Shown here piece by piece: positions 991 to 12,071 of a DNA stretch of 64,000 bases. Both the position numbers and the translations under genes were made by a program. The number at the start of each line of letters is the position of its first letter. Within the stretch, counting starts at the first letter, position 1. The DNA lies in NCBI RefSeq assembly GCF_001509795.1, contig NZ_LLZN01000102.1:110151-174150 (forward strand), read 5' to 3'. A model generated the notes under the pieces. That model ran no database searches and was not told the DNA's origin. It saw nothing but the letters and a program-made list of their open reading frames with translations. The DNA is from Streptomyces sp. NRRL WC-3605 (GTDB taxonomy: Bacteria > Actinomycetota > Actinomycetes > Streptomycetales > Streptomycetaceae).

Positions 991-2430
991 TCAGCGCCGC
1001 GCCTGGCGTTCCGTGTCGTCGGTGGCGGAGGAGGTGGCGGAGGGGGTGCGGTCGCGGGTGAACCAGGCCACCGCCCACAGGGCGACGCCGATGAGCAGCA
1101 GCACGCCCGCGATGCGGTACTCGTCGCCGGGGCGTCCCGACGACCACGGCAGCACCAGGTAGAGGCAGGCGACCGCCCCCACGACGGGCAGGACGCGGCC
1201 GGCCCGGAAGTGCGGTGCCGCCACCGTGTCCTTGCGCAGCACCAGGACGGCCACGTGCACACCGGCGAAGACGGTGAGCAGCAGCAGCGAGGTCGTGCCG
1301 CCGAGCAGGGCGACGACCGGGCTGTCGGGGTTCAGCGAGACGAACGTGATGAGGCCGAAGGCGATGACGGTGGTGAACAGGATCGCCGCCTGCGGGGTGC
1401 GCCGTACCGCGTGCACCTTGGACAGGAACGGCGGCAGGACGCCCTTGCGGCTCATGCCGTACAGCAGACGGCTGGCCATCATCATGTTGATCAGCGCCGA
1501 GTTGGCCACGGCGAACATGGAGATGAACGGCAGCAGGTCGGAGATGGGGAAGTCGGGGGCCGCCGTCTGCACGACGGTGGCGAGCGGCGTCTCGCTGTCG
1601 GCGAGGCGGCCGACGGGCACGACCGCGACCGCGCACACGGACACCAGGACGTAGATCAGGCCGGTGATGCCGAGCCCGGTGAACATCATGCGGGGGAAGA
1701 TCCGGGTCGGTTCCCTGGTCTCCTCCGCCATGTTGACCGAGTCCTCGAAGCCGACCATGGCGAAGAACGCGAGCGACGTGGCGGTGCTGACGGCGAGGAA
1801 GACGTTCTTGTCGGAGGCGCTCTCGAAGGCGACGACGCGGGAGAAGTCGGCGTTCCCCCCGGCGATGAACCAGCCGCTGACAAGGACGACGAGCAGCAGA
1901 CCCGACAGCTCCACGGCCGTCAGGAACACGTTGACCTTCAGGCTTTCGCTTACACCCCGCAGGTTGACGAGCAGCACCAGTGCCATGAAGCCGAGGGCGA
2001 TCGCCAGGATCAGCCCGTCGCCGCCGTCCAGGCCGAACCCGGTGACGAGGTTGGCCGCGAAGGCTCTGGAGGCCGCCGACGCCGAGGTGATGCCGGAGCA
2101 CATCACGGCGAAGCACACCAGGAACGTCAGGAAGTGCTTGCGGAACGCCTTGTGCACGTACAGCGCGGCACCCGCGGCCTCCGGGTACTTGGTGACCAGC
2201 TCCAGATAGGAGCAGGCGGTGATCAGGGCCACGGTGAACGCGATGACGAACGGCAGCCACGCCGCTCCCCCGACCTCGCCGGCGACCTGTCCGGTAAGGG
2301 CGTAGATGCCGGTGCCGAGGATGTCCCCGACGATGAACAGCAGCAGCAGACCGGGACCCATGACCCGCTTGAGCGTAGGTTCGCCGTCGGCGTCGGTGGC
2401 GGGTGAATCCTTCTGTCCCGTGGATGACAT
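991..2430 (-). CDS. APC-family amino acid permease
   Basis: 479 residues, hydrophobic throughout, with about 12 predicted membrane spans. The N-terminal region (LKRVMGPGLLLLFIVGDILG, then TGIYALTG) is the first helix and substrate-binding turn typical of the amino acid/polyamine/organocation superfamily; EAAGAALYVHKAF follows in span 3. The ATG at 2430 has a GAGGAG ribosome-binding site 8-10 bases upstream, which decides the start over the longer frame. It probably imports an amino acid by H+ symport, but the substrate cannot be read from sequence. A hairpin and a tRNA-like gene lie upstream on the same strand, so it likely has its own promoter between about 2431 and 2523. Confidence 0.88.
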   Translation of the reverse strand: MSSTGQKDSPATDADGEPTLKRVMGPGLLLLFIVGDILGTGIYALTGQVAGEVGGAAWLPFVIAFTVALITACSYLELVTKYPEAAGAALYVHKAFRKHFLTFLVCFAVMCSGITSASAASRAFAANLVTGFGLDGGDGLILAIALGFMALVLLVNLRGVSESLKVNVFLTAVELSGLLLVVLVSGWFIAGGNADFSRVVAFESASDKNVFLAVSTATSLAFFAMVGFEDSVNMAEETREPTRIFPRMMFTGLGITGLIYVLVSVCAVAVVPVGRLADSETPLATVVQTAAPDFPISDLLPFISMFAVANSALINMMMASRLLYGMSRKGVLPPFLSKVHAVRRTPQAAILFTTVIAFGLITFVSLNPDSPVVALLGGTTSLLLLTVFAGVHVAVLVLRKDTVAAPHFRAGRVLPVVGAVACLYLVLPWSSGRPGDEYRIAGVLLLIGVALWAVAWFTRDRTPSATSSATDDTERQARR

Positions 2431-2523: not shown

Positions 2524-2554
2524 GAGGCCCGTCCGCGTCATGCGGACGGGCCTC
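2524..2554 (-). terminator. 13-bp perfect hairpin after the tRNA-like gene
   Basis: Arms GAGGCCCGTCCGC (2524-2536) and GCGGACGGGCCTC (2542-2554) pair perfectly around a 5-nt loop. The hairpin begins three bases after the CCA end of the tRNA-like sequence at 2558-2630. It best fits an intrinsic, U-poor terminator of that small transcription unit. It also lies in the 5' region of the permease gene, so attenuation of read-through into the permease is possible. Confidence 0.75.
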
Positions 2555-2557
2555 GTC

Positions 2558-2630
2558 TGGAGCGCCGGGCAGGCCTTGCACCTGCATCTCCCCGCAGGAA
2601 GCGGGGCGTCTTTCCTTGGACCACCAACGC
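2558..2630 (-). tRNA. Atypical tRNA-Gly(UCC)-like gene
   Basis: Seventy-three bases fold into a full cloverleaf with encoded CCA. The 7-bp acceptor (GCGTTGG/CCGGCGC) has two G-U pairs. The D-arm keeps U8, A14, A15, G18G19 and A21 but has a 3-bp stem. The anticodon arm CCCCG-CTTCCTG-CGGGG gives anticodon UCC; variable loop AGAT; T-arm GCAGG-TGCAAGG-CCTGC. U73, G1-C72, C2-G71, C35 and C36 match known bacterial glycine identity elements. Odd points are U instead of purine at 37, G instead of U at 55, and a C13/A22 mismatch. A terminator follows at once. It could be a working glycine tRNA, a specialised non-ribosomal one, or a tRNA-like regulatory RNA. No strong promoter was found, only a weak TAAGCT -10 candidate near 2672-2677. 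Confidence 0.62.
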
Positions 2631-2710
2631 AGGGTCGGCGACCGCGAGTTGCGGTGACCGGCTCTGGGAGCAGCTTAGTACATCCGGGTGAGTGCCCGCG
2701 CCCCCGGAGA

Positions 2711-3712
2711 TCAGCCGCCCAGCAGGGGCAGGGTGATCCCGCACCGGACGGGCCGGGCGTGCGCCGGGTCGAGGGCGTTGCGCACGAGCTGGGCGGCGTT
2801 GGTGTCGTAGGCGAGCGACAGATGGTCCGAGACGTCCTGCGGGCAGACGTCCTGGATCAGGATGTTCCGCACGGTGGCGCCCGGGCCGGCCGTCAGGAAG
2901 TTGTTGCGGTAGGGCGTCGCGAACAGGTCGTACCGGGTGGAGACGACCGTGTACGAGACGCCCGGCCGGGTGTCACCGTCGCGGTCGAGGGTGCGGTTCA
3001 CCTCGGAGCCCGGCATCTGGTCCGACCACGCCTGGCCGACCACCGCGGACACGGTGGGGTCGAGGCCCAGCCGGCCGGTCACCGTGCCGACCCCGGAGAG
3101 GTTCCCGCCGTGGTTGGACGGGGCGAGGGCGATCAGGCGGCGCACCTTGCCGCGCTCGGGGTGCGCCGGGTCGGTGCCGCCCTCGAAGCGCAGATACCAG
3201 CGCGGGGTCGGGCCGCCGCCCTGCGAGTGCCCGACGAGGTCGACCTTGCGGGCGCCGGTCGCCTTCAGGACGCGGTCGACGTACCGGGCGATCTGCCGGG
3301 CCGACTTCGGCACGGGCCCGGTCGCCTTGAACGGGTTGCCGGGCGTGCCGCCGTAGTTGGGGGCGAAGACGCAGTACCCGAGGCTCTTCAGATAGGGGGC
3401 CAGCATGCTCCAGTTGTTGTAGGCGTTCGCCGCCGAGCCGTGCAGCAGGACGACCGGGCGGGGGTGCGCGCGCGAGGGGCGGCACGACCAGTCGTCGGCC
3501 CCGGCGGGGGCCGCCTCCGGGTGGACGAGCCCGTACGCCACCGCCGTGGCGAGGTCGAGGGCGGGGACGGGGGCGGGAGGCGCGGGGGCGGCGGACGCGG
3601 CGGCCGGGCCCGTCAGGCCGAGGGCCAGCGGCAGGGCGACCGACGCGCACAGCGCGGCCCAGCGGCCGCCCGGCCGGTTCGCACGGCTGCGGGAAAGCGT
3701 CCGGTCCGCCAT
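2711..3712 (-). CDS. Secreted lipase/esterase, alpha/beta hydrolase (lipase class 2 type)
   Basis: 333 residues. A Sec-type signal peptide (twin basic start, hydrophobic residues about 18-38, then Ala-rich cleavage region ASAAPAP) points to export. The mature part shows the oxyanion motif VVLLHGSAAN (about 87-96), the nucleophile elbow GHSQGG (Ser near 163), a likely catalytic Asp in STRYDLF and His in SDHLSL. This set and size fit secreted triacylglycerol lipases of actinomycetes. Start ATG at 3712 has GGAGACGAGGAG upstream. It is transcribed alone, with the ku gene's hairpin behind its promoter. Substrate range is not predictable. Confidence 0.88.
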   Translation of the reverse strand: MADRTLSRSRANRPGGRWAALCASVALPLALGLTGPAAASAAPAPPAPVPALDLATAVAYGLVHPEAAPAGADDWSCRPSRAHPRPVVLLHGSAANAYNNWSMLAPYLKSLGYCVFAPNYGGTPGNPFKATGPVPKSARQIARYVDRVLKATGARKVDLVGHSQGGGPTPRWYLRFEGGTDPAHPERGKVRRLIALAPSNHGGNLSGVGTVTGRLGLDPTVSAVVGQAWSDQMPGSEVNRTLDRDGDTRPGVSYTVVSTRYDLFATPYRNNFLTAGPGATVRNILIQDVCPQDVSDHLSLAYDTNAAQLVRNALDPAHARPVRCGITLPLLGG

Positions 3713-3859: not shown

Positions 3860-4911
3860 TCAGGCCGCGGCCTTCTTGCGCCGGCGGCCGCCTCCCGCGA
3901 GGGCGTCGATCAGCTCCTGGCGGCTCATCCGGGACCGTCCGGGGATCTCCCGCTCGGTGGCCCGTTCGTACAGCTCGGCCTTGCTGAGCTCGCGCAGCTC
4001 GCTCTTCTTCGGGGCGTCGGAGGTCTTGCGTGCCGAAGTCTTGGGCCTGGCGGCGGACTTGGACGCCGGCTTCCTGCCGCTCCGGGCACCGCCGCGTTCA
4101 CCGCCGCGCTCCCCGCCCCGCTTCTCGCGGCCGGAGCGGGCGCGGTCGATGCTGCCCTGGAGGACCTCCATGAGGTCGACGACGTTGGTGGCGGTCGGCG
4201 CCTCCTCGGCCGGGGCCACCTCCTGGCCCTCCGCCTTGGCCTGCATGAGTTCGCGCACCTTCTCCTCGTAGGTGTCGTGGTAGCGCGACGGGTCCCACGG
4301 GCCGCTCAGGGCGTCGACCAGTTGCAGCGCCATGTCGAGTTCCTTTCCGCTGCCCGCCCGCCGCTCGGGGAGCTGCGGCAGCTCGCGGGTGGGGTCACGG
4401 ACCTCGTCCGCCCAGTGCAGGGTCTGGAGCATCAGCACCTTGTCCTCGGCGCGCAGCGCGGTGAGGTACTGCTTGCCCCGCATCACGAAGGTGGCGACAC
4501 CGATCCGGTTCGCCTTCTCCAGGGCGGCGCGCAGGAGTTCGTACACCTTGAGGTGCTCCTCGCCGCGCGGCGCGAGGTAGTAGGTGCGGGCGAAGTAGAC
4601 CGGCTCGATCTCGTCCAGGTCGACGAAGTCGGAGATCTCGATGGTGCGGCTGCGGCCCGGCGCGATCTCGTCCAGCTCGTCCGGCTCGACGATGACGTAC
4701 TCGCCGTCGGCGACCTCGAAGCCCTTGACGATGTCGTCGCCGGACACCTCCTCGCCGGTGCGCTCTTCACGCGGCGGTTGCGGATGCGGTCGGAGGTGCC
4801 GCGCTGGAGCTGGTGGAAGTGCACGGTGTGGTCCGAGGTGGCCGTGTACAGGCCGACCGGCACGCTGACCAGCCCGAACGTGATCACACCTGTCCAGATC
4901 GCCCGTGCCAT
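3860..4911 (-). pseudogene. ku: Ku DNA end-binding protein, split by an apparent one-base deletion
   Basis: The N-terminus ([20 protein letters not shown]...) runs from ATG 4911 through RIRNRRVK, then the Ku reading continues in another frame from [15 protein letters not shown] to the stop at 3860. The switch lies near 4765, where one base seems missing from an expected AAC-GAG junction; total length is 1052 bases, one short of a multiple of three. The rest is a full bacterial Ku core plus a Lys/Arg-rich tail and a helical C-terminal segment ([14 protein letters not shown]...). Ku binds double-strand ends and recruits LigD for non-homologous end joining. The break may be a true mutation or an assembly error; otherwise the gene looks intact. 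No ligD is nearby. Confidence 0.85.
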
Positions 4912-10538: not shown

Positions 10539-12071
10539 ATGAACGCTGAGAGAGTGCCGCACGAGTCGTACTGGCTGCAGACCGCGCCGCCCGGCGATCC
10601 CGCTCCCCCGCCGGACGTCGACCTCGAGGTCGACGTCGCCGTGGTCGGCGGGGGCGTCGCTGGCCTCAGCACGGCCTGGGAGCTGGCCCGGCAGGGCCGC
10701 GAGGTGGCCGTCCTGGAGGCAGGGCGGCTCGCCGCCTCGGTCACCGGGCACACCACGGCCAAGCTCACCGCCCTGCACACCCTGGTCTACGACCGGCTGC
10801 GCCGCACCCGCGGCCCGGAGGCCGCCCGGCTGTACGCGCGCTCGCAGTCCGAGGCGATCCGGCGCGTCGAGGAGTGCGCCCGGGAGCTGGGCGTCGACTG
10901 CGAGTGGGAGGAGGCCGCGGCCCACACGTACGCCGAGGACCCGCGGCACGTCGGGGAACTGCGCGCCGAGGCGGACGCGGCCCGCGAGGCGGGGCTGGAC
11001 GCGGAGTTCGTCACGGAGACGGACCTGCCCTTCCCGGTGGCCGGAGCGGTCCGTGTGAACGGGCAGGCCCAGTTCCATCCGCGCAAGTACCTGCTGGCGC
11101 TCGCGGAGGACCTGCGGCGGCTCGGCGGCGCGGTGTACGAGAACACGCGGGTGACGGGGCTCACCGAGGGCGAGCCCTGTGTGCTGACCACGGAGGCGGG
11201 CGTGCGGGTGCGCGCCACGAAGGTCGTCGTCGCCACGCACTACCCCGTGTTCGACCGCGCGCTGCTCTTCGCCCGGCTGTCCTCGCGGCGGGAGCTGGTC
11301 GTGGCCGGCCCGATCCCCGAGAGGCGGGCACCGCGCCACATGTACATCACGCCGGAGCGGTCCACGCGCTCGGTGCGCACGGCACCCCTCGGAGAGGGAC
11401 GCCGGCTCCTGATCGTCACGGGTGAGCACTTCACCCCGGGCACCGCCGACGCGGAGGAACGCTTCGAGCGGCTGGCCGCCTGGGCCGAGCGGCACTTCCC
11501 GGAGGTGACGCTCACGCACCGGTGGGCCACCCAGGACAACGACTCGACGGACACCGTGCCGCTCGTCGGGCCGTTCCACGCCGGCAGCCGCCACACCTAC
11601 GTGGCGACCGGCTTCGGCGGCTGGGGCATGAGCGGCGGCGTGATGGCGGGCCGGCTGCTCGCGGACCTCGTCGGCGGGCGCGAGGTCGCGTGGAGCGGAC
11701 TGTACGACCCGCGCCGGCTGGGCCCGGTCGTTCGCGAGGGGGGCCGGTTCCTCACCCATCAGGCACAGGTCGCGCGGCACTTCGTCGGCGATCGGATCGC
11801 CCCGCTGGCCGGGTCCGGTCCGTCGCCGGACGACATCGCGCCCGGGGACGGGGCGGTGGTGCGGGCGGGCGCGGGGCTGTGCGCCGTCCACCGGGACGAG
11901 GAGGGGCGGCTGCACACGCTGTCGGCGCGCTGCACCCACCTCGGCTGCATCGTGTCGTTCAACCGTGCCGAGCAGGCGTGGGAGTGCCCCTGCCACGGCT
12001 CCCGGTTCGCCCCGGACGGCGCGGTCGTGCAGGGACCGGCGGTGCGGCCGCTGCCCCGGCGCGATCTCTGA
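10539..12071 (+). CDS. FAD-dependent oxidoreductase with C-terminal Rieske [2Fe-2S] domain
   Basis: 510 residues. The N-terminal Rossmann FAD site VAVVGGGVAGLSTAWELARQG (about 33-53) begins a DAO-type (glycine oxidase-like) oxidoreductase, with GFGGWGMSGG near the C-terminal flavin site. The last 75 residues form a Rieske domain with the ligand pairs C-T-H (about 465-467) and C-P-C-H (about 483-486). This architecture is known in bacteria as FAD-dependent oxidoreductase/Rieske proteins, whose substrates are mostly unknown. The start ATG at 10539 lacks a strong ribosome-binding site. It is divergent from the SRPBCC gene and upstream of a methyltransferase-CDGSH-diiron operon. Confidence 0.88.
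   Translation: MNAERVPHESYWLQTAPPGDPAPPPDVDLEVDVAVVGGGVAGLSTAWELARQGREVAVLEAGRLAASVTGHTTAKLTALHTLVYDRLRRTRGPEAARLYARSQSEAIRRVEECARELGVDCEWEEAAAHTYAEDPRHVGELRAEADAAREAGLDAEFVTETDLPFPVAGAVRVNGQAQFHPRKYLLALAEDLRRLGGAVYENTRVTGLTEGEPCVLTTEAGVRVRATKVVVATHYPVFDRALLFARLSSRRELVVAGPIPERRAPRHMYITPERSTRSVRTAPLGEGRRLLIVTGEHFTPGTADAEERFERLAAWAERHFPEVTLTHRWATQDNDSTDTVPLVGPFHAGSRHTYVATGFGGWGMSGGVMAGRLLADLVGGREVAWSGLYDPRRLGPVVREGGRFLTHQAQVARHFVGDRIAPLAGSGPSPDDIAPGDGAVVRAGAGLCAVHRDEEGRLHTLSARCTHLGCIVSFNRAEQAWECPCHGSRFAPDGAVVQGPAVRPLPRRDL

Follow-up and report, generated by a model that had tools for sequence, protein, structure and literature searches.

Among known systems, a non-proteinogenic tRNA-Gly(UCC) of Staphylococcus aureus serves the cell wall (Giannouli et al. 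2009, as cited in PMC4052509, PMC8007984 and PMC9976931). Passages of PMC4052509 describe three S. aureus tRNA-Gly in which A49-U65 and A51-U63 are found instead of G49-U65 and G51-C63, the pairs of strong elongation factor Tu (EF-Tu) binding, and in which UU or CU replaces G18G19. In Bacillus cereus, tRNAOther is expressed within a larger RNA and is poorly charged with lysine (PMC3399842). For Streptomyces coelicolor, the accessible text of PMC4487206 mentions one tRNA pseudogene without naming it. The element considered here is a tRNA-Gly(UCC)-like gene on the minus strand, at positions 2558-2630, of a 64,000-nt stretch of DNA from Streptomyces sp. NRRL WC-3605 (hereafter the window). A literature text search found no paper describing its family, although most subscription journals lay outside the coverage, which makes this weak evidence of novelty.

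By its sequence, the element is a member of a family of tRNA-Gly-like RNAs whose copies lie scattered in Streptomyces. The family combines a unit copied from putative promoter to terminator, a covarying cloverleaf, glycine identity, a tRNA-type 3′ end and the loss of features used in decoding. The element may be a tRNA that accepts glycine but no longer serves the ribosome, that is, a non-ribosomal glycine donor, and we hold this reading with evenly balanced belief. An earlier prediction made from the window had proposed such a donor, with peptidoglycan as its destination. Its first half, withdrawal from translation, gains support from a canonical UCC decoder in the same genome, lost decoding features, retained glycine identity and replaced EF-Tu pairs; its second half fares worse, as described below.

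Anatomy of the gene and its copies

The only tRNA gene that ARAGORN predicts in the window is tRNA-Gly(tcc), on the minus strand at 2558-2630. Read 5′ to 3′ it consists of GCGTTGG TG GTCC AAGGAA AGAC G CCCCG CTTCCTG CGGGG AGAT GCAGG TGCAAGG CCTGC CCGGCGC T CCA. The parts of the gene and its putative transcription unit are as follows.

2558..2630, minus strand: tRNA-Gly-like RNA, 73 nt (G1 = 2630, U73 = 2561), from ARAGORN, RF00005 (39.8 bits) and the covarying fold
2596..2600, minus strand: loop UUCCU (positions 33-37), anticodon UCC plus U37, shut by C32-G38, from sequence and copies
2574..2580, minus strand: T loop UGCAAGG, in which G55 replaces U55, from sequence and the T-loop comparison in the genome
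2569..2585, minus strand: T arm with G49-C65, C50-G64 and A51-U63, from copies and comparison with host tRNA-Gly
2612..2617, minus strand: D loop AAGGAA, GG retained, from sequence and copies
2524..2554, minus strand: terminator-type hairpin of 13 bp, from sequence, with a comparable hairpin in 207 of 209 copies
2672..2677, minus strand: weak -10-like site TAAGCT, 47 nt 5′ of the element, whose spacing fits the family but which matches the consensus poorly

The cloverleaf that had been predicted, with U37, G55, U8/A14, A15/U48, G19/C56 and U73, is confirmed from the sequence and by ARAGORN, and its two acceptor wobble pairs are 4-69 and 5-68. When RF00005 was run on the whole genome (7.58 Mb), 68 places were found; the element scored lowest, yet above the 29-bit cut-off. 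Against this, a cmscan restricted to the window gave no RF00005 entry at the element at E<=10, although the same Rfam tool listed ordinary tRNAs of the genome. Names of sub-threshold Rfam entries in the window were disregarded.

Comparison was made across 209 distinct copies, counted by the core plus 40 nt upstream. The regular expression and the pattern used to collect them preselected AAGGAAAG-like and GTGCAAG-like words and left the stretch between the words free, so the conservation of these two words is partly by construction. By length, 185 of the copies (class A) have 71 nt, the 23 that make up classes B and C have 70 nt, and a single copy has 76 nt. In all 185 class A copies, G1-C72, C2-G71, G3-C70, G10, C35, C36, G49-C65, C50-G64, A51-U63 and C32-G38 are kept, as is G18G19, the latter partly preselected by AAGGAAAG. 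Position 37 is a pyrimidine in 184 of them (U 162, C 22, G 1). The 23 shorter copies keep the 1-72 and 2-71 glycine pairs throughout and A51-U63 in 20, with C50 changed to U in seven. Their 6-nt loops read CAGCCG (8), CAACCG (7), CUCCAA (3), CUGCCG (2), CAUCCG (2) and AUCCAA (1); the letter 3′ of position 32 is A in 17 and U33 is not kept. Across copies, the anticodon loop has been rebuilt to 5, 4 or 6 nt with its CC spared: C35 and C36 occur in 209/209, outside the stretches set by the search pattern or regular expression. The 76-nt copy (L157:2903-2980) has an enlarged anticodon arm (CCCCGCTCCCCGCGGGGCGGGG) and is otherwise intact.

In an alignment of 63 matches, 43 of them distinct, which was fitted to the model and is biased toward structure in consequence, 8 of 21 pairs changed on both sides, a score that none of 500 shuffles reached. 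All five pairs of the anticodon stem are doubly changed with every cell paired. With the partners slid, 32-47% of cells remain paired, compared with 95.3% in register. Most copies have mismatched bases at pair 13-22 of the D stem. Pure pseudogene drift is ruled out by this covariation, and together the 209 copies and the covarying predicted fold confirm that the element is not a chance occurrence. The original prediction had suggested looking in other Streptomyces for the same element with stem covariation and a conserved U37; stem covariation was found, and U37 holds for 162 of 185 class A copies. A kissing contact between the D loop (AAGGAA) and the anticodon loop (UUCCU) was considered and is not supported, given that the anticodon-loop letters vary while the D loop is constant; this argument is weak, the D-loop word having been preselected.

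Bacterial glycine determinants include G1-C72, C2-G71, U73, C35 and C36, to which Thermus adds G10, U16 and C50-G64, according to the portion of PMC9976931 consulted. All of those listed there are kept in the element except U16, and the family follows, with U73 in 209/209 copies and G71 in 208/208 of the 71- and 70-nt classes; the glycine identity that had been claimed for the window copy thus extends to its relatives. At the 3′ end, positions 73-74 are UC in 209/209 copies and positions 75-76 are free (CA in 91). The encoded CCA that had been noted is therefore real in the window copy but is not a family feature. The other 67 tRNA genes of the genome have C74 in 67/67 and a full CCA in only 8. 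A fixed C74 with free 75-76 argues for tRNA-type maturation and is the best sign of it in the sequence, as there is no obvious reason for such a rule in a structural RNA that receives no CCA.

The features required for decoding follow the opposite trend. Reading the other 67 RF00005 places shows a canonical UCC gene (C113:12706-12776), one CCC gene and three GCC genes, so the element is dispensable for decoding glycine codons. An open 7-nt anticodon loop with U33 and a purine at 37 is absent, given the C32-G38 pair and the pyrimidine at position 37. The TTC T loop (T54-Psi55-C56) of decoding tRNAs begins 66 of the 68 T loops in the genome, whereas TGC occurs only in the element and in a gene at C71:45584-45655. 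As background, apart from the evidence used here, the T loop of staphylococcal cell-wall tRNA-Gly reads GUGC. The five decoding tRNA-Gly of the host have G49-U65, C50-G64 and G51-C63, whereas the element has G49-C65, C50-G64 and A51-U63.

The gene at C71:45584-45655 (G000; L213:85-156) is a second aberrant tRNA-Gly(UCC)-like gene, also seen in L206, L209, L280, L281, L283-L285 and others. Like the element, it has a TGC-type T loop (GUGCAA), a UCC anticodon and, by T-arm reading, A51-U63. Unlike the element, it has a D loop without GG, keeps the loop CUUCCAG, lies about 80 nt 5′ of tRNA-Gly(GCC) where both were read, and gives one match per genome wherever its pattern matched in the genus, while the element is dispersed and multi-copy. 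ARAGORN missed it, and it was found among the 68 RF00005 places. Its pattern is confined to the genus in a sample of 296 genomes (16 of 28 same-genus genomes), and 14 fetched loci contained two sequence variants. It may be another non-decoding glycine tRNA.

Upstream of the core, a -10-like hexamer begins 46-48 nt away in 117/208 copies. The 116 non-redundant leaders tend toward TGnGnTATRRT followed by TGATCTTGAGC, with no prominent -35 signal among the 100 leaders long enough to hold one. A near match to GATCTTGAG occurs in 72/208 element leaders and in 0/67 tRNA leaders of the genome. Downstream, a hairpin below -20 kcal/mol follows 207/209 copies compared with 11/209 shuffled sequences. The terminator attributed to the element is therefore present but not special, as 42/67 other tRNA genes of the genome have such a hairpin too.

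Distribution and spread in Streptomyces

An initial DNA search matched 19 of 61 genomes, and reading the matches left real copies in 17, some of which hold between two and five. From 11 sequences a covariance model of the core (R1) was then built, and at E<=0.01 it found matches in 213 of the 295 same-genus genomes. With a strong match defined as a best match not weaker than 1e-12, the 51 weaker genomes (listed by hand) drop out, leaving 162/295 with and 133/295 without a strong match. Up to nine matches were reported per genome, eight of these exceeding 104 bits in that genome's list. These counts are lower bounds because the filters of the large searches are strict.

Beyond the genus, the family is scarcely met. 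A sample of the order gave matches in one of five genera (100/147 genomes). A sample of the class (296 genomes, 114 genera) gave strong matches in 16 of 28 same-genus genomes and in 0/268 genomes of other genera. Weak matches (<=46.4 bits) appeared in 14 other-genus genomes; the 11 fetched were nine tRNA-Arg(UCU), one tRNA-Met and one without an ARAGORN tRNA. Of the weak single R1 matches near 47 bits, two that were read (in G380 and G358) proved to be the second aberrant gene. Scanning named genomes with a pattern gave at least 120 stretches; among the 80 listed, 79 are from Streptomyces and one is from Actinacidiphila. Copies were met in Streptomyces lavendulae CCM 3239, which has two neighbouring ones (L099). 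On plasmids, 71 of 72,556 records have a strong match, at 137 places in all; 69 of these records are from Streptomyces, among them one of S. clavuligerus ATCC 27064 with four places, and two are from Streptantibioticus; Actinacidiphila and Streptantibioticus both belong to Streptomycetaceae. Carriage by phages was considered and rejected, as the viral contigs and phage records searched gave no element match.

Within genomes, likeness between copies usually spans the unit from promoter to terminator. In 34 pairs compared within 12 genomes or loci, likeness starts at -39 or further upstream in 28 (one as far as -219) and ends at +104 or beyond in 25 (one as far as +254); three pairs are alike only over the 71-nt core. 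Three genomes (G380, G374, G383) contain copy pairs that are 95-98% identical over 163-198 nt between outer flanks that appear unrelated by eye. Copies differ at a mean of 1.24 positions within a genome (38 pairs) versus 9.26 between genomes (1915 pairs; 0/2000 label shuffles), a gap that partly reflects species descent. On 33 single-contig chromosomes, 20 of 51 tabulated copies are found in the outermost 10% at either end (against an expectation of 20%; p=0.0012), in a non-random sample drawn from best-score lists with rounded genome sizes. For the dispersed copies, neither ends nor target duplications nor a transposase or other mobilising enzyme have been recognised.

Some copies lie close together. 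Two are 335 nt apart in the same orientation (L254:3538-3610 and 3873-3945), and L137 holds three within 3.3 kb, a little over 1-2 kb apart and again in one orientation. Decay also occurs, as seen in degenerate copies with an altered D or T loop or acceptor (L264:3046-3120, L207:501-573). In three plasmid neighbourhoods (L326, L327, L328), one RefSeq locus-tag number is absent exactly at the element, where an RNA or pseudogene may therefore be annotated in some records; RNA genes are left out of the plasmid table used.

Neighbours, possible users and alternatives

In the window, the element sits between two protein genes outside the unit, all three on one strand; the start codons of both genes are the analyst's choice.

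991..2430, minus strand: amino-acid permease gene, downstream neighbour (PF13520, E 2.1e-39)
2711..3712, minus strand: lipase-like alpha/beta hydrolase gene, upstream neighbour (PF00561, E 1.2e-13; PF01674, E 4.6e-11)

Elsewhere in the window, positions 10614-10637 form a perfect 11-bp inverted repeat (GACGTCGACCT / AGGTCGACGTC) with a sub-threshold Rfam match on both strands.

Genes beside the copies were predicted by a simple GC-frame method in flanks of up to 5 kb on each side (median 2.7 kb upstream and 3.0 kb downstream, with 4.9 kb on both sides for 4/209). No constant neighbour was found among the flanks of the 209 copies. The commonest is a TsaD-like gene upstream of 21 copies, probably one orthologous site. 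A Pfam scan of 104 of the 244 distinct neighbour proteins gave 128 families, the commonest among those listed being MFS with five members, and among 15 plasmid neighbourhoods (three of them unannotated) only two were alike. Where a downstream gene is predicted within 1 kb, the nearest one lies on the opposite strand, facing the element, in 132/174 cases. The suggestion that the RNA regulates the downstream permease in cis consequently finds no support as a family function, since neighbours vary and no constant position or orientation before a related gene is seen.

As a glycine donor, the element would be transcribed, trimmed and CCA-tailed in the manner of a tRNA and charged with glycine by GlyRS. 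EF-Tu would bind it poorly and codon reading would be impossible, thereby leaving its glycine to transferases that draw on aminoacyl-tRNA. The likeliest users among these would be Fem-type enzymes, with either the cell wall or a secondary metabolite as a possible acceptor. FemAB-family genes are present in the genome: PF02388 gives four match pieces, falling at two places among the matches listed, and both proteins were read. Streptomyces antibiotic pathways contain Gly-tRNA-dependent FemX-like enzymes, DhpK and Orf11, as described in part of PMC12945691, which makes a natural-product user as thinkable as the cell wall. A broader and more doubtful proposal, which we offer tentatively, is that a cassette family spread via plasmids and chromosomes makes ribosome-barred glycine-donor tRNAs, and that the number of copies would adjust a distinct pool of Gly-tRNA serving the chemistry of the cell wall or of natural products.

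Several observations weigh against the donor. U16, a Thermus GlyRS determinant in the cited portion of PMC9976931, is missing; G18G19 is retained, where the S. aureus RNAs described in PMC4052509 have UU or CU; and the conserved leader motif hints at something more than an ordinary tRNA precursor. No partner gene was found among the neighbours of the copies, and a comparison of 1050 predicted flank proteins of the 209 copies with the genome's two FemAB-type proteins left none matching at E<=1. FemAB is present in 28/28 same-genus genomes tested, with similar piece counts with and without the element (3.8 in 16 genomes versus 3.1 in 12, p=0.32), and nearly half of same-genus genomes gave no strong match. 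With FemAB in every same-genus genome tested, the element patchy and the counts not differing, the ordinary glycine bridge cannot in general depend on the element, and the peptidoglycan role that had been proposed loses ground. Nor was a cross-taxon link between TGC-T-loop tRNA-Gly and FemAB found: FemAB occurs in 110/268 genomes outside the genus, and the TGC T-loop pattern matches 16/28 genomes inside it and seven outside, the latter with sequences unlike tRNA in appearance; a reversed control pattern also matches many genomes. Genomes with the element are larger (8.6 versus 7.4 Mb, p=0.019; 16 versus 12 genomes).

The same observations bear on what else the element could be. It is unlikely, though with appreciable weight, to be a small regulatory RNA, some 155-165 nt long, composed of leader, tRNA-like domain and terminator, in which the fold would provide stability or protein binding and glycine would be irrelevant or only sensed. 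The conserved TGATCTTGAGC motif 3′ of the -10 site and the promoter-to-terminator likeness of copies agree with such an RNA, for which tRNAOther of B. cereus is a precedent (in the part of PMC3399842 consulted), but a pure small RNA would need neither the C74 rule nor strict glycine identity bases. No glycine T-box was found in the genome; one T-box match lies below the cut-off, and the frame behind it is one we take to be ileS. The anticodon-loop letters besides CC vary as well, making loop pairing with a fixed target unlikely. That the element is an ordinary, if odd, decoding tRNA-Gly(UCC) is very improbable. ARAGORN and RF00005 accept it and class A spells UCC after U33, but a canonical UCC gene is present, the C32-G38 pair shuts the loop above an almost invariable pyrimidine 37, the loop in the 23 shorter copies is 6 nt long, 17 of them with A after position 32, and the element's T loop departs from the TTC of nearly all other genes.

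Two further explanations start from the copy number, and each has only a slim probability. The element might act as a decoy or competitor where tRNA-Gly is bound or attacked by some other factor, for example a toxin directed at tRNAs. It is multi-copy, plasmid-borne and, in the non-random tabulation, enriched near chromosome ends, and its invariant U73 and G71 are the identity elements of the toxin TacT (as cited in PMC9976931); these are glycine identity bases anyway, however, and no toxin family recurs among the 104 neighbour proteins scanned of 244. Alternatively, a dispersed tRNA-derived repeat with little or no cellular role could be maintained by its own spread. Nearly identical discrete copies between unrelated flanks in three genomes, the far greater likeness within than between genomes and the few degenerate copies (L207, L264) would agree with this. 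Against it, the copies have yielded neither ends nor target duplications nor a transposase, and the compensated base changes and nearly invariant core across many species imply selection on the RNA.

The repeated rebuilding of the anticodon loop in this family, with two C's and the acceptor end left intact, constitutes a natural experiment on the needs of GlyRS and EF-Tu, in a genus where antibiotic enzymes that depend on Gly-tRNA are known (PMC12945691, in part). The family also illustrates that tRNA finders can score probably non-decoding genes as tRNAs.

Comparison with known systems

tRNAOther of B. cereus resembles the element as a tRNA-like gene outside translation that is embedded in a longer unit. 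In contrast to tRNAOther as described in the available text of PMC3399842, the glycine identity of the element is strict across many species and its copies are numerous.

The cell-wall tRNA-Gly of S. aureus, in the sections of the sources cited above, offers the closer parallel. Both are extra UCC isoacceptors that exist beside a normal one and keep glycine identity, and both have an altered T loop and A51-U63 instead of G51-C63. They differ at another T-stem pair, G49-C65 in the element and A49-U65 in S. aureus. In addition, the decoding loop of the element is more thoroughly dismantled, in a remodelled anticodon arm with loops of 5, 4 or 6 nt, and its gene is multi-copy, dispersed and patchy. 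Charging, escape from EF-Tu and use in the cell wall are reported for the S. aureus RNA and only proposed for the element. The best reading is that the element would work like the staphylococcal cell-wall tRNA-Gly, without the two being claimed identical in kind.
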